A stretch of DNA of 64,000 nucleotides, from contig NZ_CP047135.1 of NCBI RefSeq assembly GCF_009832905.1, positions 4,665,001 to 4,729,000 of the forward strand, in the 5' to 3' direction. Under the pieces are notes generated by a model. It made no database searches. It had not been told where the DNA came from and saw only the letters and a list, made by a program, of their open reading frames with translations. Of this stretch, positions 1 to 64,000 are shown one piece after another (position 1 is the first letter of the stretch; every line of letters begins with the position of its first letter). This DNA is from Stenotrophomonas sp. 364. Its GTDB lineage: Bacteria > Pseudomonadota > Gammaproteobacteria > Xanthomonadales > Xanthomonadaceae. Both the position numbers and the translations under genes were made by a program.

Positions 1-86
1 CTCGCGCCGACAACGCGCTGTACCAGGCCAAGCGCCTGGGCGGCAACCGGCTGCACTGGTCGCGTGCCGCGACCGCCTCACCCTGA
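1..86 (+). CDS. C-terminal end of a GGDEF (diguanylate cyclase) protein, truncated by the window edge
   Basis: The frame starting at base 3 reads RADNALYQAKRLGGNRLHW and ends with TGA at 84-86. The pattern A-D-x-A-L-Y-x-A-K-x-x-G-x-N is the usual closing signature of GGDEF domains, which make cyclic di-GMP. Only the last 27 codons are present, so the sensory part and catalytic motif cannot be judged. The next gene starts 16 bases downstream on the same strand and could share the transcript. Confidence 0.8.
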   Translation, partial: RADNALYQAKRLGGNRLHWSRAATASP

Positions 87-102
87 TCGGGGGAAGATCG
101 GC

Positions 103-2613
103 ATGAACGGCGACAACGGAGCGTCGACCCAGGCCCCCCAGATGCGGGCGCTGTTGTTCACCGATCTGTGCGACTCGATGGTTCTGGTGGAGCGCATCGG
201 TGACGCGGCGGCCGCTGAGCTTTTCCAGCATCACGACCGATTGGTGTTGGGGTTGCAGCAACTGTGGAACGGGCACCAGATTGACCGTTCTGACGGCCTG
301 TTTCTGTTGTTTGATCGTGCGATCGACGCATTGGGGTTCGCGCTGGACTACCAGCGGGGCCTGCAGGCGATCGGCGAGCAGCGGGGGATCGTTCTGCGTG
401 CCCGCGCCGGATTGCATGTTGGCGAGGTATTGACTTGGGAAAACAGCCCCGAGGCGATCAAGGCAGGCGCCAAGTCCGTGGAGGTGGAAGGCTTGGCCAA
501 GCCCATGGCCGCGCGCCTGATGACCCTGGCCAGGCCCGGGCAGCTCCTGCTGTCGGCCGGCGCCGAGTCGTTGACCCACCGGGCCGCGGGCGAGCTGGGC
601 GAACGGGGCACGCGCCTGGTGTGGAAATCGCATGGTCGCTGGCGATTCAAGGGCATACCGACCCGGCAGGAAGTGTTCGAGGTGGGCGAAATCGGATCGG
701 CCCCGCTGCGAATGCCACGCGGAAACGCCAAGGCCCGCCGCGACATACCGCTCTGGCGCCAGCCGACGGCCCTTGCCGCGGAAGCAGCATTGGTGCTGGT
801 GGTAGGCATCTGTGCCTGGATGCTGCTGCGCCCCGAACCGGCCATCGCCTTCGCCGAGCGGGACTGGGTCGTGGTGGGCAAGCTTGAGAATCTGAGCAAC
901 AACGTGATGCTCGATGACGCGCTCGACCAGGCGTTCCGCATCAGCCTGGAGCAGTCGCGCTACGTCAACGTCGTCAGTGACGACCGCATCTCCCGCATTC
1001 TGGAGATGATGCGCAAGTCGCCTGAAACCGACCCATTGGACAGAAGCAATGCCACCACCGTCGCGGTGCGATCCGGTGCGCGGCTGGTGTTGCTGCCCGT
1101 GGTGGCGACCGTCGGGGGGCGCACCCGGTTCTCCGTGGAGGTGGTGGATCCACAGACACGACAGACGCTGGCCGTCCGGTCATCGCTGGCCAGGAAAGGC
1201 GCCGTCCTCAATGCGATCGATGACGTGTCGCGCCAGCTGCGTGATGATCTGGGCGAGGAAGCGGCCGTCATCGAACGCAACAGCCAACCCCTGCCCGAGG
1301 TCACCACCAGCAGCCTCGACGCGCTGCGCGCGTATGCACTGGGACAGCGCCGCTATGCGCGGGGCGACTACAAGGGCGCGCTGGCGTTTTACCAGCAGGC
1401 AACGCAGATCGACGATGCCTTCGCCCTGGCGTGGCTGGGACAGACCCGGGCGCATTTCTCCAGCGCCGACTTCGCCAGTGCGGCCAATGCCCTGGTGCAG
1501 GCGCAGCAGCGTTCCAGCCATCTTGCCAGCCGCGAGGAAATCTACGTCCGCAACTGGACGCTGCAGATCACCGACCCGGGCCGTGCCACCGACGGCTGGG
1601 TGCGCATGGCCGAGCTCTACCCGGACTACCTGCCGGCCACCTACAACGCCGCACTCAATCTGTTCGTGGAGAACCGGTTCAACGAAGCGCTTCCGCTGGC
1701 ACATCGCGTCAGTGAGAGTCACGTCGACCTGCCTGCCGTGGCCCTGGATCAGTACGGACGCATCCTGCTGGCATTGGGGCAATACGATGCAGCCGACGTT
1801 GCGGCAGGCAAGGCGGCCGCTACGGGCTGGGAGGGCGCACTTATGCGGCAGGCGACGGTGGCAGCCGCCAGGCGGGACTATCCGCGTGCGGCCGTTCTGC
1901 TGGACCGCGTCACCGCAGGCAACTTCCACGCCGATGTGTTCCGCACCTCCGTCGCATTGGACCAGGGCGACGCGGACTCGGCGATACGCCTGGCCCAGCG
2001 GGGAATGACGCGAAGCGGCACAAAAACCGGTGTAGACCGTTACAACTTCTACGTGCCGCTTGCCGTGGCGCAGATGCAGGCCGGCCGGCGCGCGTCCGCG
2101 CTGGCGCTGTTGCGTGAAGCGTCACGGGTGCCCTTGGACGACATCGCCAACATACCGCCGGTGGATCTCATCGATCGCATCGTCACCACCCAGGCGGCCG
2201 CGCTGGTCGCCTTGAGACTCGGCGATCGCCAGCTCGCCAAAGCGGTCCCCGAGCGCATCGCGCTGTTGAAAGGGGTGCCACCCAGCCGGTTGATCGATGA
2301 AATGAACGCGGTGTTGGCCGCCGAGCGCCTGCGCCTGGACGGGCGACCAAAGGACGCCTTGCATCACCTTGCGCCTTACATCGGTGAGCAGTCGCGTCTG
2401 CAGGTACGGGTATCGGCGCTGCAGGCCGCCCGGGATGCCGGCGATACCCTCGGCGTCGCTCAGCACGCCGGCTGGCTGCGCGACAAGGCCGGACTCGCCT
2501 ATGCCGAGGTGGAATGCAGCTACTGCCTGCAGGCACTCAACGTGCTGGACGTGCGCAGGATAGCGGGCGATCCCGCAACGCTGCCGCCAGCGGCAGCGCG
2601 CGGAAGACCGTGA
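103..2613 (+). CDS. Membrane adenylate/guanylate-cyclase-like protein with TPR region (putative peptide modification system cyclase)
   Basis: A protein of 836 aa from ATG 103, chosen because GGGGAAG lies about 8 bases upstream; a GTG at 64 would overlap the previous gene. Residues ~14-190 look like a class III nucleotide cyclase: FTDLCDS with Asp21, RSDGLFLLF with Asp64 as candidate metal ligands, and HVGEV in the usual GIHxGEV position. One transmembrane helix lies at ~222-242. It is followed by a domain like those in winged-helix/TPR regulators (DWVVVGKLENLSN onward) and TPR-like helical repeats to the C-terminus. Known family: this arrangement beside a small NHLP-like peptide and a SagB-like dehydrogenase matches the Xanthomonadaceae 'putative peptide modification system cyclase' family. 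Whether it makes cAMP or cGMP, or uses the fold for peptide chemistry, cannot be read from sequence. Confidence 0.8.
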   Translation: MNGDNGASTQAPQMRALLFTDLCDSMVLVERIGDAAAAELFQHHDRLVLGLQQLWNGHQIDRSDGLFLLFDRAIDALGFALDYQRGLQAIGEQRGIVLRARAGLHVGEVLTWENSPEAIKAGAKSVEVEGLAKPMAARLMTLARPGQLLLSAGAESLTHRAAGELGERGTRLVWKSHGRWRFKGIPTRQEVFEVGEIGSAPLRMPRGNAKARRDIPLWRQPTALAAEAALVLVVGICAWMLLRPEPAIAFAERDWVVVGKLENLSNNVMLDDALDQAFRISLEQSRYVNVVSDDRISRILEMMRKSPETDPLDRSNATTVAVRSGARLVLLPVVATVGGRTRFSVEVVDPQTRQTLAVRSSLARKGAVLNAIDDVSRQLRDDLGEEAAVIERNSQPLPEVTTSSLDALRAYALGQRRYARGDYKGALAFYQQATQIDDAFALAWLGQTRAHFSSADFASAANALVQAQQRSSHLASREEIYVRNWTLQITDPGRATDGWVRMAELYPDYLPATYNAALNLFVENRFNEALPLAHRVSESHVDLPAVALDQYGRILLALGQYDAADVAAGKAAATGWEGALMRQATVAAARRDYPRAAVLLDRVTAGNFHADVFRTSVALDQGDADSAIRLAQRGMTRSGTKTGVDRYNFYVPLAVAQMQAGRRASALALLREASRVPLDDIANIPPVDLIDRIVTTQAAALVALRLGDRQLAKAVPERIALLKGVPPSRLIDEMNAVLAAERLRLDGRPKDALHHLAPYIGEQSRLQVRVSALQAARDAGDTLGVAQHAGWLRDKAGLAYAEVECSYCLQALNVLDVRRIAGDPATLPPAAARGRP

Positions 2614-2625
2614 TCGACACGACCA

Positions 2626-2931
2626 TCAGCGCAGTGTGCGCGGACCGCCATGGCCGTGTTCGAGCATCGGAACCGTGTACGCGGTGCCACAGGTGAGCAT
2701 GGCCACGATCTGCTCCTCGGCGGCCGCGATGGCTTCCTTGTCGGCCAACTGCACGTTGGCGCAGCAGAGCGTGACGAATTCTGCCAGCGACGTTTGATCT
2801 TCCGGGACATGGCCCGCAGCGATCAGGGCCGCTTCGGTCGCGGTGGCAAACTGCTGGCGGAATGCATCATCGGTGGCCAACAGGTGAACCAGGTGCCGGG
2901 CGACGGAGGGTTCGAGCTTCAACGAGGGCAT
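2626..2931 (-). CDS. NHLP-like precursor peptide (putative modified peptide)
   Basis: A protein of 101 aa. ATG 2931 is chosen over a longer frame because AAGGA sits about 8 bases upstream and the family-like sequence begins MPSLKLEPSVARHLVHLL. Residues 10-36 (ARHLVHLLATDDAFRQQF, then ATATEAAL) resemble the helical nitrile-hydratase-alpha-like leader of NHLP peptides, with 'D-x-x-F-R' in the usual place. It has three cysteines, Cys56-Cys57 and Cys81, and a short tail, CGTAYTVPMLEHGHGGPRTL. The gene converges on the cyclase (12-base gap) and diverges from the SagB-like dehydrogenase, so peptide and enzymes are on separate transcripts. It is probably ribosomally made and post-translationally modified; the modification and final product are unknown. 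Confidence 0.75.
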   Translation of the reverse strand: MPSLKLEPSVARHLVHLLATDDAFRQQFATATEAALIAAGHVPEDQTSLAEFVTLCCANVQLADKEAIAAAEEQIVAMLTCGTAYTVPMLEHGHGGPRTLR

Positions 2932-3075
2932 GGCGGATCCTTGGATGGTCGGGACGATGTGCTGGTTTCGGCCCAGCCCGGCACATCTTGAGGCATCGGG
3001 AGCAGTCGCCATCAAGTTGTGGGCGGATGGATCGATATGGTGGAACAAGAACGGGTTGCCGAAGGGGAACAGCAG

Positions 3076-4248
3076 ATGCAGGTCAGGCGGTGTGCGGTAC
3101 TGGTGCTGGAACCACGGGAAACCATCGAGTTCCGTTTTGAAAGCCTTCTACAGGGAGGTGACGGGCTGGTACGTGACCTGGCCTGGTACGCCCTGGCACC
3201 CCACCTGGACGCGCCGGTCAGGGTCGACGGCCGCGCCCAGGCGTGGTTGGGCAGCCTGAGTCCCAGCCGCTGGCACGCACTGGAGGAAGGAAGTGCCGAG
3301 GCCATGCTGGCTGCCCCACTGCTGGCGGCTGGTCTGGTGATCGCACAGGACCCGGCTGACCCGGTGCACGCCGCGCGTGACGCACGCCTCCGTCAGGCCC
3401 ATTGGCATCCTCTTGCTGCGGTGCTGCATGCATTCTCGCGCTGGGACGGCGTGGACGCGGTGCGGAACATGAAGGAGTCCGAGACCGAAACGGCGGTCCA
3501 GATGCGTCGCACGCTGGGTGCTCCACCCGCTGAGTGCGCCCGCATCGAGGGGAGCGGCCCACCCCAGCAGCTGCCCCGGTCACCCAGCGGCTGCTTCGAC
3601 GACCTGTTGGCGCGGCGTGTCACCTGCCGGAACTTCGACACCTGGCAGCCGTTGCCGCTGGCGCTGTTTGCCCAGGTTCTGCAGCGGACCTTTGGCAGCA
3701 CCGCGCAGCAGCGCGTGGGCGAGGATCTCGTCTTCCTCAAGAAGAACGTACCCTCGGGGGGCGGACTGCATCCGATCGAGGCCTATCTGCTGGTGCAGCA
3801 TGTCGAAGGTGTCGCACCCGGGATCTACCACTACCAGAGTGACAGCCACCAGATCGCGCCGGTCGGTACGGACGCCGTGCTGGACCGCGGCTTTGTCATG
3901 GAGGCCGTGGGGCAGCAGCATTGGTTCGCCGATGCGCACGTGCTGGTGGTGTTGGCGCCCCGGTTCAATCGCACTTTCTGGAAGTATCGCCAACATGCCA
4001 AGAGCTACCGCGTAGTGGCCATGGAAGCCGGCCACCTTTCCCAGACGCTTTACCTGGCGGCGACCGATGCCGGGTTGGGCGCTTTCATTACCGGCGCCAT
4101 CAACGAAAAGCACCTCGAACGCGCGCTGGGGCTCGATACCATCGCCGAAGGTGTGCTCGCTGTGTGCGGCTTCGGCTGGCGCGCCGCACAGATGACCACC
4201 ACCGAACTCGACCCGGCGGGGGTCATCTGGCAAGCGGCGGCAACCTGA
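3076..4248 (+). CDS. SagB-like nitroreductase-fold peptide maturation dehydrogenase
   Basis: A protein of 390 aa from ATG 3076, preceded by GAAGGGGA at the right distance; in-frame starts at 3019 and 3037 lack such a site. Residues ~175-385 are a SagB/nitroreductase-type FMN domain: RRVTCRNF, VPSGGGLHPIEAYLLV, GIYHY, the MEAGHLSQTLYLAATDAGLG helix and the terminal VCGFGW. SagB proteins oxidise azolines to azoles in modified peptides. The N-terminal ~150 residues are diverged and may bind the peptide. It lies between the peptide gene and the liu cluster, with the cyclase upstream, matching the 'putative peptide maturation dehydrogenase' family. No YcaO cyclodehydratase is in view, so the substrate bond is unclear. 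Confidence 0.8.
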   Translation: MQVRRCAVLVLEPRETIEFRFESLLQGGDGLVRDLAWYALAPHLDAPVRVDGRAQAWLGSLSPSRWHALEEGSAEAMLAAPLLAAGLVIAQDPADPVHAARDARLRQAHWHPLAAVLHAFSRWDGVDAVRNMKESETETAVQMRRTLGAPPAECARIEGSGPPQQLPRSPSGCFDDLLARRVTCRNFDTWQPLPLALFAQVLQRTFGSTAQQRVGEDLVFLKKNVPSGGGLHPIEAYLLVQHVEGVAPGIYHYQSDSHQIAPVGTDAVLDRGFVMEAVGQQHWFADAHVLVVLAPRFNRTFWKYRQHAKSYRVVAMEAGHLSQTLYLAATDAGLGAFITGAINEKHLERALGLDTIAEGVLAVCGFGWRAAQMTTTELDPAGVIWQAAAT

Positions 4249-4279
4249 TCGCCGCCCTTGCGAAGTCGGCAGGCGGGGC

Positions 4280-6268
4280 TCAGGCCCCGTCCGCCTCAAA
4301 ATCCACCAGCACCGCCCCATCCCCCACCTGGTCACCGGCCTTGACCCGGTAGCCCTGCACCACGCCATCGGCGGGTGCCTGCAGGGTGTGTTCCATCTTC
4401 ATCGCCTCCAGCACCAGCAGCGGTGCACCGCGCTTGACCTTCGTGCCGGGCGTCACCACCGTGGCAACGATGCGGCCGGGCATCGGTGCCACCAGGCTGC
4501 CGGCATCGGCCACGGCCTGGTCGGCTTCGCTGACCGGGTCATGCAGGATGAAGCGCTGGGCGCCCTCCGTGCCGAACAGGTATATCTCGTTGCCATCGCG
4601 GACCACGCGGGCACGGTGCAGGGCATCGCCGACCTGCACGCGCAGCATGTCGCCGTCGAGCGCGCCGTGGACGAGCAGCCGCGCATCACCAACGGTCACC
4701 GACCACGTGCCGTTGTGTTCCAGCGCGGTCACCGCCTGCGCGCCACCACGGTATTCAAGGCTGAGCGCATGCGGGGCGCGTGCGCCCAGACGCCAGCCAT
4801 CCTGCCGCTGCCACGGCGAATGCGGGTCGCGTGTGTCCACGCTGGCGGCGGCCTGGCTGCCGACCGCGGCAATGGCGGCCAGCGCCCACATCGTCGGGCT
4901 GCCGCTATCGGCGCTGGGTGCCAGCGCAGCTTGCTCGCGCTCGATCAGCGCCGTGTCCAGGTCCGCGTGGGCGAACGAATCGGTCATCACCAGCCGGCGT
5001 AGGAACGCCGCATTGGTGGTCACGCCGACCACTTCGCACTCGGCCAGTGCCTGCTGCATGCGGCGCAGCGCCGCGTCGCGGTCCACGTCCCACACGATCA
5101 GCTTGGCAATCATCGGGTCGTAGAACGGGGTGATCGCATCGCCGTGTTCGACACCGGCGTCCACGCGCACGTGCGCGGTGTTGGCCGGCAGGCGCAGGTG
5201 GCGCAGGCTGCCGGTGGACGGCAGGAAGCCGCGGTCGGCGTCTTCGGCATACAGCCGCGCTTCCAGCGCATGGCCGCGGATCTGCAGCTGATCCTGCTGC
5301 AACGGCAGCGGTTCCCCGCTGGCCACGCGCAGCTGCCATTCCACCAGGTCGGTGCCGGTGATGCACTCGGTCACCGGGTGCTCCACCTGCAGGCGGGTGT
5401 TCATTTCCATGAAGAAGAAATCGCCGTTGGGGGCGGCAATGAATTCCACCGTGCCGGCGCCCACGTAGTTCACCGCGCGCGCAGCGTCCACCGCGGCCTT
5501 GCCCATCGCCGCACGGCGCTCGGCGGTCATGCCGGGCGCGGGCGCTTCTTCCAGCACCTTCTGATGGCGGCGCTGCACCGAGCAGTCGCGCTCGAACAGG
5601 TACACCACGTTGCCGTGGCTGTCGCCGAACACCTGGATTTCGATATGACGCGGGCGCTCGACGTACTTCTCCACCAGCACGTGCGCGTTGCCGAACGCGG
5701 CCTGCGCTTCGCGCTGGCAGCTGGCCAGGGCCTCGATGAAATCGGCGCTGTCGTCCACGCGGCGCATGCCCTTGCCACCGCCACCGGCGCTGGCCTTGAT
5801 CAACACCGGGTAGGTGATCGCATCGGCCTGGGCGCGCAGGAACGGCGGATCCTGGTCATCGCCGTGGTAACCCGGGGTCAGCGGCACGCCGGCCTGTTGC
5901 ATCAGCGCCTTCGCCGCGCTCTTGTCGCCCATCGCGCGGATCGCATCGGCCGACGGACCGATGAAGACGATGCCCGCCTCGGCACAGGCCTGGGCGAAGC
6001 CGGCGTTTTCGGACAGGAAGCCGTAGCCGGGGTGGATCGCCTGCGCGCCGGTGCGGCGGGCGGCGTCCAGGATCGCGTCGCCGCGCAGGTAGCTCTCGCG
6101 GGCCGGCGCCGGGCCGATCGCGATGGCCTCGTCGGCCAGGCGCACGTGGCGCGCGTTGCGGTCGGCATCCGAATACACCGCCACGGTGGCGATGCCCAGG
6201 CGCTGGCAGGTAGCGATGACGCGGCAGGCGATTTCGCCGCGGTTGGCAATCAGGATCTTGGTGAACAT
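4280..6268 (-). CDS. liuD: Methylcrotonyl-CoA carboxylase biotin-carrying alpha subunit
   Basis: A protein of 662 aa, typical of MccA/LiuD. The N-terminus MFTKILIANRGEIACRV is the biotin carboxylase start. The glycine-rich ATP-grasp loop SAGGGGKGMRRV and MEMNTRLQVEHPVTE follow, and the C-terminal biotinyl domain carries EAMKMEH with the biotin lysine at about residue 624. It carboxylates biotin for conversion of 3-methylcrotonyl-CoA to 3-methylglutaconyl-CoA in leucine breakdown. It lies 63 bases downstream of liuB in the same orientation. Acetyl- or propionyl-CoA carboxylase alpha subunits look alike; the liuA and liuB neighbours decide the call. Confidence 0.93.
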   Translation of the reverse strand: MFTKILIANRGEIACRVIATCQRLGIATVAVYSDADRNARHVRLADEAIAIGPAPARESYLRGDAILDAARRTGAQAIHPGYGFLSENAGFAQACAEAGIVFIGPSADAIRAMGDKSAAKALMQQAGVPLTPGYHGDDQDPPFLRAQADAITYPVLIKASAGGGGKGMRRVDDSADFIEALASCQREAQAAFGNAHVLVEKYVERPRHIEIQVFGDSHGNVVYLFERDCSVQRRHQKVLEEAPAPGMTAERRAAMGKAAVDAARAVNYVGAGTVEFIAAPNGDFFFMEMNTRLQVEHPVTECITGTDLVEWQLRVASGEPLPLQQDQLQIRGHALEARLYAEDADRGFLPSTGSLRHLRLPANTAHVRVDAGVEHGDAITPFYDPMIAKLIVWDVDRDAALRRMQQALAECEVVGVTTNAAFLRRLVMTDSFAHADLDTALIEREQAALAPSADSGSPTMWALAAIAAVGSQAAASVDTRDPHSPWQRQDGWRLGARAPHALSLEYRGGAQAVTALEHNGTWSVTVGDARLLVHGALDGDMLRVQVGDALHRARVVRDGNEIYLFGTEGAQRFILHDPVSEADQAVADAGSLVAPMPGRIVATVVTPGTKVKRGAPLLVLEAMKMEHTLQAPADGVVQGYRVKAGDQVGDGAVLVDFEADGA

Positions 6269-59886: not shown

Positions 59887-60308
59887 ATGTGGCGATCCAG
59901 GCGGCCAGGGGCAATTACCAGCGCCCCCACAGCAAGTGCAAATAACTTTGTGGACATTATGTCTGTGTCCACGGCGACCTCATGTCGCGTTCCCTGAGTG
60001 TTCCCAACCGTTGGCGCGTGTCAACACGTGCCCGACCGGTGGATCCTGGGGCAGCGTTCATTCCAAGCTGCGATCAAATCGTGGGTTTGCGGCCTACTTA
60101 CCGGGGCGTCAGAAACAACGGACGCAGGCGGTCATCAGAGCAGTTGGCTCAATTAAGAGACCACGACCAGAAGTCGCGACACGCATTGGAGAAACCTGCG
60201 GGATAGAAGCACGGCGAATCTCTACGGGCCATCGGCTTCCCACACAATCCTCACATAAGTTAAGCTCCGCGTGCCTATCTAGGGCATAAGGACTACCAGG
60301 GGGGAAGA
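59887..60308. other. Intergenic stretch before the NdpA-like gene
   Basis: No complete gene is supported, apart from the possible signal-peptide codons of the previous gene. GTGGACA-(9)-TGTCCAC at 59950-59972 is a perfect seven-base inverted repeat that could be an operator or hairpin. Composition shifts toward lower GC from about 60.2 kb, the likely edge of acquired DNA. A strong ribosome site, GGGGGGAAG, directly precedes the next gene. Confidence 0.6.
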
Positions 60309-61349
60309 ATGGAAATCAAAGCGGCAATTATTCATCATTTGAAAAAGCTGCAGCACACATCCGGAGAGGGCAGTGTGTCAGTTCATTGGCGTGACGATCT
60401 GTTGCCAGCCAACGATACGTTAACGGCAGTGTGCGCTCAGACGCTTCACCTCTTTAGCAAGAAGGGTAACAGTACTGGCACATTTGGCGAGGATGAGGAT
60501 CTTCATAGATTCCCTGTCCGAGTGAAAGAACATCGGGCCGGAGAGGTTGATTTCCTCGCATTCTCGAAACTTGCCGTCAACATCATCATGGGCGAGATGG
60601 AAGGTGCGCCACTCGCAACTGGGGGGCATGCCTTCATCGTCAGCTATGAGGTCGGCGGTGAGGAATTTCTACTCGTAACCATGCTCAAGCTTAGAGAGGG
60701 AGCTGGGATCGACGACGACAACCTTGACCTAACCCCAACGCTGGTCATCGATACGGACAAGCTGCACGAAGCGGCCAAGGTGAATCTCAGCAGGTGGGAC
60801 GCAGGGACAGTACCCTATCTCACGTTCATAAAGGGCCGCGGTGCGGATGAAGTGACAGCTTATTTCCGTAAGGCTCTGGCGTGCGATGACTACACCAGCG
60901 GGCGTCATCATACGAAGCAAGTCATTCAGGCAGCGAAAACTTACGTACTGCAGCTCGAAAGCCTGTCTGATGAAGAAAAGCAGGAGCGCTGGAAGGAAGT
61001 CAGAGGTAGGTTGCACGAGTGTTTTTCAAAGAGCAAAGAGGAAGTGGTTCTCACCGCGATCGCAGTGGCAGTGGAAAATCTGGAGCCTGAAAAATTCATC
61101 GAGTTCGTCACGACTGGTGAGGATGCGCACAAGTTCCAGTTCAGCCACGGATTCAAGCCCGACCAATCGGTATACAAGGAACTGCGCAGGGTTCACGGAA
61201 AGATGGGTACGATCGCGGTATCATTTGACATTCAAGATGTTGCCGAAAAGCGCGTTACTTATGATGAGAATCAAGACGCTCTGCTAATTCACAATCCTAG
61301 CGAATCGCTAAAGGCAGAAGTAAAGGCAAATGCAACCCCGGGATCTTAA
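60309..61349 (+). CDS. Nucleoid-associated protein, NdpA/YejK (37-kDa) family
   Basis: A protein of 346 aa. It matches the nucleoid-associated family by its N-terminal layout (MEIKAAIIHHLKKLQ), AFSKLAVNIIMGEMEGAPLA, and the middle GGHAFIVSYEVGGEEFLLVT then LVIDTDKLHEAAKVNLSRW with YLTFIKGRGADEVTAYF. In E. coli YejK binds the nucleoid; relatives are found in prophages and defence islands. Its codon use is more AT-rich than the core genes. The last 20 bases overlap the start of the next gene. Confidence 0.8.
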   Translation: MEIKAAIIHHLKKLQHTSGEGSVSVHWRDDLLPANDTLTAVCAQTLHLFSKKGNSTGTFGEDEDLHRFPVRVKEHRAGEVDFLAFSKLAVNIIMGEMEGAPLATGGHAFIVSYEVGGEEFLLVTMLKLREGAGIDDDNLDLTPTLVIDTDKLHEAAKVNLSRWDAGTVPYLTFIKGRGADEVTAYFRKALACDDYTSGRHHTKQVIQAAKTYVLQLESLSDEEKQERWKEVRGRLHECFSKSKEEVVLTAIAVAVENLEPEKFIEFVTTGEDAHKFQFSHGFKPDQSVYKELRRVHGKMGTIAVSFDIQDVAEKRVTYDENQDALLIHNPSESLKAEVKANATPGS

Positions 61350-62541
61350 AACTACGCACGATGCCGTCCTCTGGCTCGATAGAGAGCTTGAGGGTGTCGA
61401 GCAGCAGCTTCTGGATAAGCAGGTGTACTCGGGTCGACTGCCGGACAGCTACAACTTCTCTGCGACGCTTCGCATCCTCCGTGCGATTGGCGGAAACTTT
61501 CTTGGGGATCCTGATGAGCCTACGAGGCTGATTAGTTTTATCCCAGAGCGAGGGGCTGTTTATAGCGACCTGAAGCGGATGCTGGTTTCGCAAAAGGCGA
61601 ACCTGACCGGCGTACCAGCGGGGTTTACGCTCACCAATATTGCATACAGTTACCGCGGGCAAGATGCTGATGCTCCAGACTCGGTACTTGCTTACTTCCA
61701 CGCGGTTAAGCTCTGTCGTTTGCTAGCCGAGTTGGCTGACTACGCAACTCATGGTGATCTATGTCTGCACTTCCTCGTGCGTCCAGATGCTCGGTTCAAG
61801 ATATCGCTTGAGTACGGCTCCGAGGATCTGCGGATTCTTCCGGAGTTGGATTCTTTTCGGGCAGAGTACATGGATGAAGATTTTCATCGTGCGGAGAAGC
61901 ACGCAATTGCTCGGGACGCATTAGCAGAACTGGCCTCGGGCTCTGGCGAGCTGACGATAAGGCAGCTCGCGCAGGGTTTTTCAAACTACGTGCGTAACGT
62001 CCGCGCATCGTATGCGCTTTTGCTGTCGAAGTTCACGGCCGCTAGTGTTGCGAAGGAAATCGCAAAGCAGAATTTGGATGATTCATTGAGGCTCAATAAG
62101 TCATTTTCCGATATCCAGAATCAGCTGCTGGCGCTGCCTGCTGCGCTTCTGGTGGCGGGTGCGTCGATCGCCTATGACGCGCCCTTCAAGAACATATCGG
62201 TGCTGATAGGAATCTCCATTTTTGTCGCGCTCATGTGGATGTTGGTAGCCAATCAAAGAAATTCTGTGCGCGCTATCGGCCGCGAGATAGAAATTCGGAG
62301 AACCGAGCTTGCTGCGCAGCCAGACGTTGTATCTGAGCCTCACCGTCAAGCGTTTCGCGATCTGCACGTTCGTGTTGATCATCAGCTGAACGTACTCGTT
62401 GCTGTACGAATCGCAGTGGCCATTGTTTTTCTCAGCGTGGTGTACATGGCGGTGGATGGGCTATCCTCCGGTGCGGTCACATCCTCAGTTCTTACTTTTG
62501 CTCGTGCAACCCAATCCTTTCTATGGCCCACCGGATTGTGA
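61330..62541 (+). CDS. Unknown protein with two C-terminal membrane helices, coupled to the NdpA-like gene
   Basis: A protein of 403 aa, start overlapping the previous gene by 20 bases. The N-terminal ~270 residues look soluble and helical with no motif I recognise (TTHDAVLWLDRELEGVEQQL, ISLEYGSEDLRILPEL). Two membrane helices lie at ~265-300 (LLALPAALLVAGASIAYDAP, VLIGISIFVALMWMLV) and a third hydrophobic segment lies near 350-375 (LVAVRIAVAIVFLSVVYMAV). The overlap, AT-rich codons and adjacent prophage scar suggest a transferred two-gene cassette; a defence role is only a hypothesis. Confidence 0.7.
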   Translation: MQPRDLKTTHDAVLWLDRELEGVEQQLLDKQVYSGRLPDSYNFSATLRILRAIGGNFLGDPDEPTRLISFIPERGAVYSDLKRMLVSQKANLTGVPAGFTLTNIAYSYRGQDADAPDSVLAYFHAVKLCRLLAELADYATHGDLCLHFLVRPDARFKISLEYGSEDLRILPELDSFRAEYMDEDFHRAEKHAIARDALAELASGSGELTIRQLAQGFSNYVRNVRASYALLLSKFTAASVAKEIAKQNLDDSLRLNKSFSDIQNQLLALPAALLVAGASIAYDAPFKNISVLIGISIFVALMWMLVANQRNSVRAIGREIEIRRTELAAQPDVVSEPHRQAFRDLHVRVDHQLNVLVAVRIAVAIVFLSVVYMAVDGLSSGAVTSSVLTFARATQSFLWPTGL

Positions 62542-62907
62542 TGATCTCTCCAGCACCAGCGAAGTGGTGAGGCCGGTGCTGCCCGTGATGCTGTGGGTTG
62601 CCTCGGCGATCAACCAGGTGCGGTCATCGATGTCGGGCTTGAATCCGGACACATCGATGCGCTGCTCGAGGTAGAGTGTTGCCCGGCCCAGCGCCAGCGA
62701 GTACTCCAGCTTGGCCGCGTCGCGCTGCACGCGCTTCCATTCGGCGTCTGCATGCTCGCGTGCGGTTCGCTTGCTGTTGAAGGTCTCGGGCAGCGATTTG
62801 GAGTTCGTGGCCGTCCTCACCAACACCGACTTGCGTCGGGCGCCTTTTTTGTCGTTGCAGTACGCGCGCACGCCGCTGTAGGTATCTCGCTGACTGGCGC
62901 TGAACCT
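62521..62907 (-). pseudogene. 5'-truncated P2-like late control/tail gene D fragment
   Basis: The minus strand encodes YSGVRAYCNDKKGARRKSVL and then EYSLALGRATLYLEQRIDVS, GFKPDIDDRTWLIAEATHSI and TGLTTSLVLE, which match the C-terminal ~120 residues of P2 gpD. Full gpD is ~350 aa. The N-terminal two-thirds are missing, and the only start is a TTG at 62919 inside unrelated sequence. The 3' end is intact but cannot make the tail protein. It abuts a portal fragment head-to-head. Confidence 0.85.
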
Positions 62908-62914
62908 GTGGCTG

Positions 62915-63253
62915 GGCAATTTACGCAGCCTTTTCCTTCATTCGCCCAACGGTAAGAAGGACCGTCCGCAGCTGATTCCAGTCAGCGAGGTAGCGGCCAA
63001 GGATGAGTTCATGAGCATCAAGAGCGTCATGCGCGACGACCTACTGGCATCGCTGCGGATCCCCCGCAGCCGCTGGGAGTGGGTGCCGCAGAATGCTGGC
63101 GGCTTCCGGTCCATACGCGATGCGTACGCCGCTCAGGGCGAGACCGAGTTGGCCGCGCTGCAGGCCCGGATGCTGCCCGTGAACGACTGTGTCGGCGACG
63201 ACGTGATCCAGCTTGCTCCGTTCGACCCGAAGACACTGGGCGGGATTGCATGA
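62915..63253 (+). pseudogene. 5'-truncated P2-like portal gene Q fragment
   Basis: The plus strand, open from 62894 with recognisable portal sequence from ~62915, reads LFLHSPNGKKDRPQLIPVSE, VAAKDEFMSIKSVMRDDLLA and later NAGGFRSIRDAY and ARMLPVNDCVGDDVIQLAPF, the C-terminal part of PBSX/P2-type portal proteins. A start at ATG 63011 would give only 80 aa. The first ~two-thirds of the gene are gone. Together with the D fragment it marks a large deletion inside a prophage. Confidence 0.85.
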
Positions 63254-63282
63254 TGCTTCCCCTGCCGTGCTTGGCTTAATGC

Positions 63283-63329
63283 GCAAGCCCCATGCCCAGC
63301 TCTCGCAGGAGAGGCATGGCTTTTGCTTT
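63283..63329 (+). terminator. Terminator after the portal fragment
   Basis: CCATGCC (63290-63296) pairs with GGCATGG (63313-63319), extended by AAGC/GCTT-like flanks, and is followed by CTTTTGCTTT. It lies ~35 bases after the portal stop and before the convergent gene end, so it may stop both. Confidence 0.65.
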
Positions 63330-63336
63330 GGGTCGA

Positions 63337-64000
63337 TCAAGTGCGAATGCTCGTGATCGGTCGGCCGTTCTTCTCTTGCAATGCCTTGCGTGCATCATCC
63401 CATTGAAGCATGAGGATGGTGCGCTCAACATCTTCACCGCCGTCACTTCGTGAGCAAAGCCAGAGCGCATAGACCTTCTGAGTGGCATCAACTTTCCTCG
63501 CCATATCAGCGTGAGCTTGCTCAATCGCTTGTCTGGCTTGATTGCACTGCGATTGCACCATCTGTCGGAGCTTGACGTGGGCCGTGCTTATGCGCTCGAT
63601 CGCTCTCTTACAGGTGATGCGTATATCGATCTGCTCATCGATTTCCGCCAGGACCGTCGGTTTGAACTTTTTGTTCTGGGCCAGAACTGTCTTCAACGAA
63701 TAGAAGATCAGAGATTCAGCCCAGCAGGCCTTTCGAGCGCCCTTTACGCCGTGTATAGGCGCGGCGCTGTGCTGTGCATGATTTCGGAGGGCGCAGATAG
63801 CACGATACTCATTGCTTGCGTCATAGATATTCCTCAGCTGACCCTCGGCTAGCTGTTTGAACGTCACCGGCGCTGCGATCCCGGCAACCAACAAAGGCTC
63901 GCCTAGGTCAAGATGCTTGAAGTCTTGAACCACTTGGTCGACGTACGATTGGTGAGCAGTCAGGAAGTTCATGAACATACGGTTGGCTTCAGCTAGCACG
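63337..64000 (-). CDS. Unknown protein with HEPN-like RX4H motif, truncated by the window edge
   Basis: An open frame of 220 codons runs to the window end (GTG at 63999, true start unknown). It is mostly helical. ICALRNHAQHSAAPIHGV contains R-x4-H (Arg72, His77 in this frame), the catalytic spacing of HEPN ribonucleases, and RN-x-x-QH resembles HEPN-like proteins often seen in accessory genes. It lies directly downstream of and convergent with the portal fragment, the place where P2 carries its old/tin exclusion genes. An abortive-infection role is possible but not shown. Confidence 0.5.
   Translation of the reverse strand, partial: VLAEANRMFMNFLTAHQSYVDQVVQDFKHLDLGEPLLVAGIAAPVTFKQLAEGQLRNIYDASNEYRAICALRNHAQHSAAPIHGVKGARKACWAESLIFYSLKTVLAQNKKFKPTVLAEIDEQIDIRITCKRAIERISTAHVKLRQMVQSQCNQARQAIEQAHADMARKVDATQKVYALWLCSRSDGGEDVERTILMLQWDDARKALQEKNGRPITSIRT

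Follow-up and report, generated by a model that had tools for sequence, protein, structure and literature searches.

A precursor peptide, a SagB-type dehydrogenase and a receptor-like guanylate cyclase at one xanthomonad locus: a candidate peptide-signalling unit with exchangeable specificity

The left end of a 64,000-nucleotide stretch of the genome of Stenotrophomonas sp. 364 (contig NZ_CP047135.1, positions 4,665,001 to 4,729,000; hereafter the window) carries genes for a membrane class III cyclase with tetratricopeptide repeats (TPRs), a 101-residue precursor peptide related to the nitrile hydratase leader peptides (NHLP) and a SagB-type dehydrogenase (Table 1). Among relatives, the variable C-terminal core of the peptide follows the TPR half of the cyclase, and we lean towards reading the locus as a peptide-signalling unit in which the matured peptide would be the ligand of the cyclase.

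Genes at the locus and their conservation

An earlier account made from the letters alone (the sequence-only reading) had described a cyclase, a 101-residue peptide and a SagB-type oxidoreductase as a contiguous set of three genes. Profile searches found all of them, with products exceeding by far the curated cut-offs of TIGR04510, TIGR04509 and TIGR04511, the families to which they had been assigned. The set is contiguous as described, but it had been left unstated that the peptide gene lies on the minus strand, converging with the cyclase gene and diverging from the dehydrogenase gene, and a further gene upstream of the cyclase, of the XC_0249 type described below, had been missed. Position 3076 is the likely start of the dehydrogenase, chosen from the length of close homologues, within a frame open from 3019. 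No Rfam element reached its gathering score in positions 1-6000 of the window.

Table 1. Features of the locus, with positions in the window
Feature	Position	Strand	Basis
3' end of the cNMP-binding and GGDEF gene, XC_0249 counterpart	1..86	+	frame and stop inside window
Receptor-like guanylate cyclase, 836 residues, TIGR04510, XC_0250 counterpart	103..2613	+	1132.6 bits (cut-off 400)
Class III cyclase domain (residues 1-200), predicted cytoplasmic	103..702	+	matches Ma1120 and LipJ cyclases
Single predicted transmembrane helix (about residues 223-242), N-terminus inside	769..828	+	hydropathy; placed by eye
Juxtamembrane extracytoplasmic domain, LpoB/FlgO-like (weak)	859..1095	+	LpoB E=0.0023, below cut-off
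TPR domain (about residues 397-800), proposed peptide sensor, highly variable	1291..2502	+	TPR_19 33.2 bits
CxxC motif, C-terminal end of cyclase (residues 805-808)	2515..2526	+	
NHLP-related precursor peptide, 101 residues, TIGR04509	2626..2931	-	92.6 bits (cut-off 34), translation
Variable C-terminal core of the peptide (residues 80-101), beside cyclase 3' end	2629..2694	-	alignment of 107 peptides
SagB-type dehydrogenase, 390 residues, TIGR04511	3076..4248	+	560.5 bits (cut-off 240)

Among 149 genomes of the family, 93 passed the cut-off for the cyclase, 93 for the peptide and 91 for the dehydrogenase; 89 have all three and 54 have none, bearing out the expectation of a conserved set. Incomplete sets were found in six genomes: three hold no more than a fragment of the dehydrogenase, near or at a contig end (G007, G024 and G126, the last also without the peptide), two have the cyclase broken into pieces that each fall below the cut-off (G011 and G120), and the sixth (G054) is considered with the proposed mechanism. 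The dehydrogenase exceeded its cut-off in 57 of 250 genomes of an order-wide sample, including several other families of the order, and in 8 of 398 genomes of a phylum-wide sample, all eight inside the order; the closest dehydrogenases with a named source are from Stenotrophomonas. A peptide search of a large protein set returned four matches only. One peptide homologue (P0125, E=3.8e-9) is attributed to a Streptomyces record, possibly through contamination or transfer, and a record titled Bacillus subtilis subsp. subtilis has the cyclase locus (L211), presumably as xanthomonad contamination.

The DNA left of the window holds, in order, malate synthase, isocitrate lyase and a 364-residue protein whose gene (L096:13993-15084) ends just before the cyclase gene, and which contains a cyclic nucleotide (cNMP)-binding domain (cNMP_binding, 76.2 bits) and a GGDEF domain (138.4 bits). 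This protein is the counterpart of XC_0249 of Xanthomonas campestris and belongs to the same unit as the three genes. An XC_0249-type gene was found in 74 of the 80 fetched loci (68 by clustering and six more by direct search), as a rule directly upstream of the cyclase, and isocitrate lyase and malate synthase each occur upstream of the cyclase in 67 of 80. Because these genes recur there, the locus occupies a fixed chromosomal site in most loci and is not a mobile island.

In relatives, the peptide gene opposes the cyclase in 88 of 95 clustered cases, and the dehydrogenase gene shares the direction of the cyclase in 72 of 84, being reversed in a minority of loci. Two loci are expanded: L170 (in G022) has 10 peptide and 4 dehydrogenase genes and L168 (in G067) has 5 and 3, and no XC_0249-type neighbour was found in either. 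Another (L269 in G040) is rearranged: upstream of its cyclase, the space from isocitrate lyase to the dehydrogenase holds five peptide genes that are nearly identical.

We assembled 160 loci, 80 from the cyclase matches in the family genomes (the window's own included, several contig-end or fragmented ones left out) and 80 from a wider contig search, in which a single-protein query recovered no relative and an alignment query recovered 283, the best 80 being kept; many genomes are shared between the two halves. Restriction to loci that carry a single copy each of cyclase, peptide and dehydrogenase together with the two reference genes left 121, a limit of <97% cyclase identity left 100, and removal of one truncated cyclase left the 99 loci over which the following counts per locus were made.

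The cyclase, its upstream neighbour, the dehydrogenase and the peptide

According to An et al. (2013, PMC3770947), XC_0250 of X. campestris, a class III cyclase with TPRs, makes cyclic GMP (cGMP) in vivo and in vitro, and the adjoining XC_0249, with cNMP-binding and GGDEF domains, binds cGMP at 0.293 uM and makes more cyclic di-GMP (c-di-GMP) in its presence; mutants in each of the two genes form less biofilm, and adjacent homologues occur in xanthomonads including Stenotrophomonas maltophilia. The window has the same key residues and gene adjacency. All six XC_0250 residues substituted in that study (D41, D71, L73, A150, L157 and A161) are found in the window cyclase at an offset of 7; homologues P0132 and P0146 have six of the six and P0140 and P0142 five, and none of 2000 shuffles of a homologue reached six. 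Likewise, the five cGMP contacts of XC_0249 are all matched in the upstream neighbour at one offset, and its best match in the PDB is 5h5o, a cNMP-domain chain deposited as 'Diguanylate cyclase' (E=1.6e-45). The N-E dyad is present in XC_0249-type genes of 93 of the 99 loci and GGDEF in all 99, and at the locus studied here a cNMP domain with this dyad and an intact GGDEF domain stand beside the cyclase.

The match to XC_0250 and the adjoining XC_0249 counterpart indicate that the 'cyclase' is most likely a second-messenger enzyme, for which we predict cGMP synthesis of the XC_0250 type. On the same grounds we dropped a role as peptide-modifying enzyme, so that the suggestion of the sequence-only reading that the cyclase signals rather than modifies has become the more likely one. 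The cyclase itself is not undescribed, since it matches a cGMP-making enzyme (PMC3770947), and the label 'peptide modification system' covers only half of the locus because the cyclase matches XC_0250 and lies beside the XC_0249 counterpart. The window genes are full members of TIGR04509, TIGR04510 and TIGR04511; the family name assumes a peptide-modification cyclase, whereas the evidence points to cGMP signalling.

Key positions of the catalytic domain are close to invariant, D21, D64 and R138 occurring in every one of the 99 loci and P134 in 98 of them. Alignment with Ma1120 (residues 16-110) places D21 and D64 at its metal-aspartate positions, which we take to be metal-binding; by eye, against the expected motif, P134 and R138 presumably stand at the transition-state positions and L157 and A161 do not. 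Since D21 and D64 occupy the metal-aspartate positions, the D41 that the text of PMC3770947 terms metal-binding, equivalent to D34 of the window and not to D21, is another invariant aspartate. These differences in residue roles leave the assay result of that study untouched, and a degenerate, dead cyclase with altered active-site residues was dropped as an explanation, XC_0250 being active (PMC3770947).

Each of the 99 cyclases has one 19-residue window with a hydropathy of at least 1.6 starting at residues 211-242, and in all 99 the count of Lys and Arg is higher before this hydrophobic window than after it. This positive-inside signal predicts the catalytic domain to be inside, and the LpoB/FlgO-like stretch and the TPRs, which begin at about residue 397-411, to be outside. 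The best stretch for TPR_19 begins at residue 419, and among 40 homologues LpoB was matched in 9 and FlgO in 5 at E<=0.01. PADLOC models gave no match for the cyclase, the peptide or the dehydrogenase at E<=0.01, and the cNMP domain of the XC_0249 counterpart matches Pycsar-type models; a known anti-phage system of the Pycsar type was dropped, the matches being limited to this domain of the neighbour.

The dehydrogenase belongs to the nitroreductase family (80.3 bits) and scores 125 bits with TIGR03605. From about profile position 163 onwards it matches CyaGox, BmdC and McbC, and with azoline oxidases of the SagB, McbC and CyaGox type it shares W-K-Y and, mostly, the P-S-G/A-G motifs. All 99 loci have the W-K-Y that aligns with CyaGox, and we take its Lys-Tyr to be the catalytic pair in CyaGox-type enzymes. 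Unlike SagB, McbC and CyaGox, the dehydrogenase occurs without YcaO over the cut-off in 81 of the 91 genomes that bear it, and its N-terminal 155 or so profile positions, which might form an RRE-like peptide binder, matched no solved chain at E<=5. As the sequence-only reading had it, neither a YcaO, the cyclodehydratase of thiazole/oxazole-modified microcin (TOMM) clusters, nor a recognisable exporter is in view at the locus.

A YcaO over the cut-off occurs in 10 of the 149 family genomes, all ten of which also bear the dehydrogenase (p=0.007). The window's own genome is among them, and its YcaO lies in a separate, TOMM-like cluster (L273:6212-9840, about C1:439211-442839) with a nitroreductase-family enzyme of its own and, by eye, a small membrane protein and a cyclodehydratase-partner-like protein. 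Ordinary azole formation is unlikely as the shared chemistry, because most dehydrogenase-bearing genomes lack YcaO, the YcaO of the window's genome is clustered separately and 15 of 99 peptides contain no Cys.

In the alignment of 107 peptides the leader is the more constant part. The cores fall into types such as ..TVPMLEH.., ..TTPQLDA.., ..QPIRLNV.., ..VVHCFEAG.., ..CPAELL.. and ..WIVFCR, and 7 of 99 core 16-mers are without C, S or T. A C39 peptidase was found in 91 of the 149 family genomes; a C39 exporter as conserved partner, as expected for a ribosomally synthesised and post-translationally modified peptide (RiPP) of the NHLP type, was rejected because at least 12 of the genomes without C39 carry the system, some of them as incomplete assemblies, and no such exporter was recognised among the conserved neighbours.

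Co-variation of the peptide core with the TPR half of the cyclase

We computed partial rank correlations of core distances with those of other parts of the locus, controlling for how far apart the loci are in isocitrate lyase, in the XC_0249-type gene and in the catalytic domain of the cyclase. Against 50-residue windows of the cyclase, the core gave -0.05 to 0.11 over residues 201-400, 0.28 at 376-425 and 0.33-0.55 from 401 on, with its peak at 476-525. The correlation with the whole TPR part was 0.593 when the juxtamembrane part was also held constant and 0.366 when the dehydrogenase was held too (0/999 permutations reached each value), and the controls gave 0.067 for the juxtamembrane part and -0.026 for the catalytic domain.

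The same pattern was obtained from trees. Cores grouped into six unedited clusters, for which the minimum is five changes and shuffled labels average 46, required 24 changes on the backbone tree, 23 on that of the catalytic domain and 14 on that of the juxtamembrane part. The trees of the TPR part and the dehydrogenase required 6 and 7, respectively. Resolved into 48-residue windows, the core changes numbered 29-36 for isocitrate lyase, 23-29 for the XC_0249-type gene, 27-31, 16-21 and 6-10 for cyclase residues 1-264, 253-408 and 397-804, respectively, 6-18 for the dehydrogenase and 10-11 for the peptide's own leader. The co-variation steps up at around residue 400, at the onset of the TPRs, and the core follows the TPR half of the cyclase and not the species, the catalytic domain or the XC_0249-type gene.

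Core type is also reflected in the CxxC motif at the cyclase end. With cores sorted by regular expression, the motif is present in 40 of 47 P-x-L-D/N loci, 0 of 37 x-F-E, 1 of 7 P-x-E-L and 1 of 8 others; several of the seven P-x-L-D/N loci without it look misfiled by the expression and are still counted as exceptions. Core classes edited by hand at eight loci after the CxxC motif had been seen give a 42/1/56 table and 22, 1 and 4 changes on the backbone, TPR and dehydrogenase trees, respectively. Since this editing is partly circular, we rely on the unedited expression and clusters.

Paralogous peptides within one locus tend to have similar cores. In loci with two or three peptides (two loci with more than three were left out), all 12 testable pairs, those of the 17 for which leader-matched controls sufficed, fall below the median core distance of leader-matched pairs, with a median percentile of 0.06.

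Close relatives show how the alleles change. In three close pairs (L236/L244 and L192/L226 of Xanthomonas and L097/L125 of one genus) the flanks are mostly 90-99% identical, with local dips, and identity falls to about 30-70% in a block that opens 0.7-0.9 kb into the cyclase gene and closes at about 4.3 kb; the dehydrogenase of the window ends 4.1 kb past the cyclase start. A control pair with like alleles (L236/L237) has no such block. In L097/L125, isocitrate lyase is identical and the catalytic domains are 2% apart, with the TPR parts 70% and the cores 72% apart. In L100/L203 (L203 being Lysobacter arvi) the differences lie in the TPR part, the core end of the peptide gene and a piece of DNA ahead of the dehydrogenase; the leader proteins are identical and the dehydrogenases 8% apart. 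L118/L119 is a second such case. In the convergent layout the core-coding end adjoins the end that encodes the proposed sensor, so that both can be replaced within a single recombination tract.

Among 119 pairs with catalytic domains <10% apart, the TPR part has diverged (>0.4) in 88 of 88 pairs with diverged cores and in 2 of 31 with similar cores, and in the 88 the dehydrogenase has diverged in 63 and is conserved in 25; the pairs are not independent, and these counts therefore describe rather than test. In seven groups of near-equal isocitrate lyase, the catalytic domain forms one cluster per group, the TPR part 4-8 and the core 1-6. Among close relatives the peptide thus varies together with the proposed sensor, the output domain staying conserved.

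A proposed peptide-signalling unit and its alternatives

With the gene set, the residue-level match to XC_0249/XC_0250, the topology signal, the co-variation and the cassette replacement computed here, we favour, with some reserve, the view that the locus is a peptide-signalling unit with exchangeable specificity, in which a modified peptide is read by a receptor guanylate cyclase and cGMP is converted into a c-di-GMP output. The SagB-type dehydrogenase would oxidise the NHLP-type precursor, and the processed core would be exported from the cytoplasm and recognised by the extracytoplasmic TPR domain of the one-pass membrane guanylate cyclase. Binding of the core would alter cGMP synthesis inside the cell, in one direction or the other, and cGMP would activate the neighbouring cNMP-binding/GGDEF protein, which would make c-di-GMP, with biofilm formation as the output. 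Core and TPR sensor would be exchanged and diversify jointly, in the manner of pherotypes, with the output half conserved.

More tentatively, and in near balance with the contrary, the locus might be a bacterial counterpart of the peptide-hormone receptor guanylate cyclases of animals: a ribosomal peptide oxidised by a YcaO-free SagB-type enzyme would be the ligand of a TPR receptor guanylate cyclase in one order of Gram-negative bacteria, and pherotypes exchanged horizontally within a close set of species would determine who triggers a shared biofilm circuit running from cGMP to c-di-GMP.

Several observations weigh against the signalling unit. By eye, no signal peptide or constant cleavage site was obvious among the 107 aligned precursors, and no exporter was recognisable among the neighbour clusters, which derive from crude gene calls whose products were not searched; of the 58 genomes without C39, 12 of the 20 listed carry the system, some of these assemblies being incomplete. 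In one genome (G054) both the peptide and the dehydrogenase are missing beside a retained cyclase and XC_0249-type gene. The catalytic domain of XC_0250 by itself restores biofilm formation (PMC3770947), so that the TPRs are dispensable for activity as such, and the likeness to XC_0250 was scored by its published residue numbers and not by its sequence.

The co-variation likewise has its exceptions. The XC_0249-type gene, too, shows a weak correlation with the core (0.103; 9/999 permutations), and the leader correlates with the TPR part (0.419, and 0.274 given the core). The contrast between trees is smaller with two to five core clusters (with three, 9 changes against 3); one of the seven close groups has four TPR clusters and a single core cluster; L153 has a TPR part near those of L154 and L155 (0.29 and 0.27) and a different core (0.94); L144, with a P-x-L-N core, has one of the two tail cysteines only; and L112, which has two peptides and is not among the 99 loci, combines P-x-L-D cores with the absence of CxxC. 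In five of the 17 within-locus pairs, those with the closest leaders, the cores are no closer than in other pairs, as judged by binned means. Loci and pairs are not independent, which the Mantel permutations leave in, and isocitrate lyase and the XC_0249-type gene are imperfect proxies of the species, their distances correlating at 0.28 and their clusters agreeing at an adjusted Rand index of 0.32-0.71. Finally, TPR part, core and dehydrogenase are contiguous, and block exchange alone yields part of the co-variation.

Such block exchange could occur without any ligand-receptor relation, if a recombination hot spot made the 3' half of the cyclase gene move together with peptide and dehydrogenase, perhaps with outside pressure on exposed parts, and the peptide acted elsewhere. 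Besides the contiguity of the three stretches, the replaced block of the three close pairs runs from inside the cyclase past the dehydrogenase to a sharp end, and the leader, being in one gene with the core, tracks it in close pairs almost as the TPR part does (phi 0.92 versus 0.96). However, the adjacent dehydrogenase stayed conserved in more than a quarter of the core-diverged pairs (25/88), in all of which the TPR part diverged; the coupling peaks at residues 476-525 and not at the cyclase end nearest the core; trees of the leader need more core changes than those of the TPR windows; and the cores were matched in every testable paralog pair. We regard this explanation as rather unlikely, and prefer a ligand-receptor relation to pure hitch-hiking because of the higher fidelity of the TPR part compared with the dehydrogenase, the distance of the coupling peak from the core and the paralog result.

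In toxin and kin-discrimination systems, polymorphism with matched partners is common, and SagB enzymes such as the TIGR03605 match suggests are typical of bacteriocin clusters. The peptide could accordingly be a toxin used against other microbes or for kin discrimination. Its partner, the TPR cyclase, would then act in self-recognition or in sensing a cue, either shielding the producers or setting off biofilm formation when a foreign peptide is met. Yet no immunity-type gene, any more than an exporter, was recognisable by eye in the same crudely called neighbour clusters, whose products were not searched; the fixed place by isocitrate lyase and the retention of the whole set look like a regulatory circuit; and the known mutants affect cGMP, biofilm and plant virulence (PMC3770947). 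This we consider improbable.

Still less probable, in our view, is a purely internal role, in which the peptide never leaves the cell or its membrane, controls the cyclase or the dehydrogenase from there and carries no signal between cells. The absence of an exporter found as conserved partner and the more constant leader are in its favour, as is the co-variation of the leader, unlike the core, with cyclase residues 251-400 (0.25-0.33); but the core co-varies with the TPR half beyond the transmembrane helix and not with the cytoplasmic domain. An ordinary thiazole/oxazole-modified peptide cluster with its YcaO encoded elsewhere, to which the SagB superfamily membership with W-K-Y, the YcaO of the window's genome, the presence of the dehydrogenase in all ten YcaO genomes and the C, S or T of most cores would be congenial, is hardly credible given the 81 of 91 dehydrogenase genomes without YcaO, the separate own YcaO cluster with its own nitroreductase-family enzyme and the Cys-free peptides, and was dropped.

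The signalling unit that we favour has partial precedents. To our knowledge, ComQXPA of Bacillus subtilis and this locus share no protein family. In ComQXPA, comQ, comX and comP vary strongly, and jointly, among close relatives (PMC4408185); here too an enzyme, a peptide and a membrane protein are encoded together and jointly polymorphic. They differ in that our locus has a dehydrogenase, an NHLP precursor, a TPR guanylate cyclase and second messengers where ComQXPA has ComQ, which prenylates, ComX, a histidine kinase and ComA; a ComP-type histidine kinase receptor was not found, the receptor candidate being a class III cyclase with TPRs. With RRNPP receptors, which are cytoplasmic, it would share a TPR domain proposed to bind a short processed peptide, but here the TPRs lie beyond a predicted transmembrane helix and are fused to a class III cyclase. 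Polymorphic modified-peptide signalling is a known kind of system, with parts here for which we found no precedent.

The peptide input side proposed here is new with respect to the XC_0250/XC_0249 study, whose accessible text leaves the TPR domain uncharacterised and whose main text, as far as accessible, does not mention 'peptide', XC_0251 or XC_0252 (PMC3770947); in the accessible part of a 2019 review, the TPR part of XC_0250 is still a domain of uncharacterised function. The 2010 NHLP paper (PMC2887384) makes no mention of Xanthomonas, Stenotrophomonas or SagB in its accessible text, and in the open-access literature, which leaves most subscription papers outside its scope, no paper among those listed was found that links the peptide or the dehydrogenase to the cGMP pathway.

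Apart from this locus, the G+C content of the window drops from about 65% to 53-57% at positions 60000-64000, possibly marking an acquired island, which holds a gene for a 37-kDa nucleoid-associated protein (NA37, 181.5 bits) and three other frames without a Pfam match.

The signal sensed by XC_0250 was left open in 2013 (PMC3770947), and the locus supplies a candidate ligand, a candidate maturing enzyme and a candidate sensor region, with an allele structure that offers ready-made cognate and non-cognate pairs. If the proposal is true, it would give a function to three annotation families that have placeholder names only, and would represent polymorphic peptide communication in Gram-negative bacteria with a cGMP readout.

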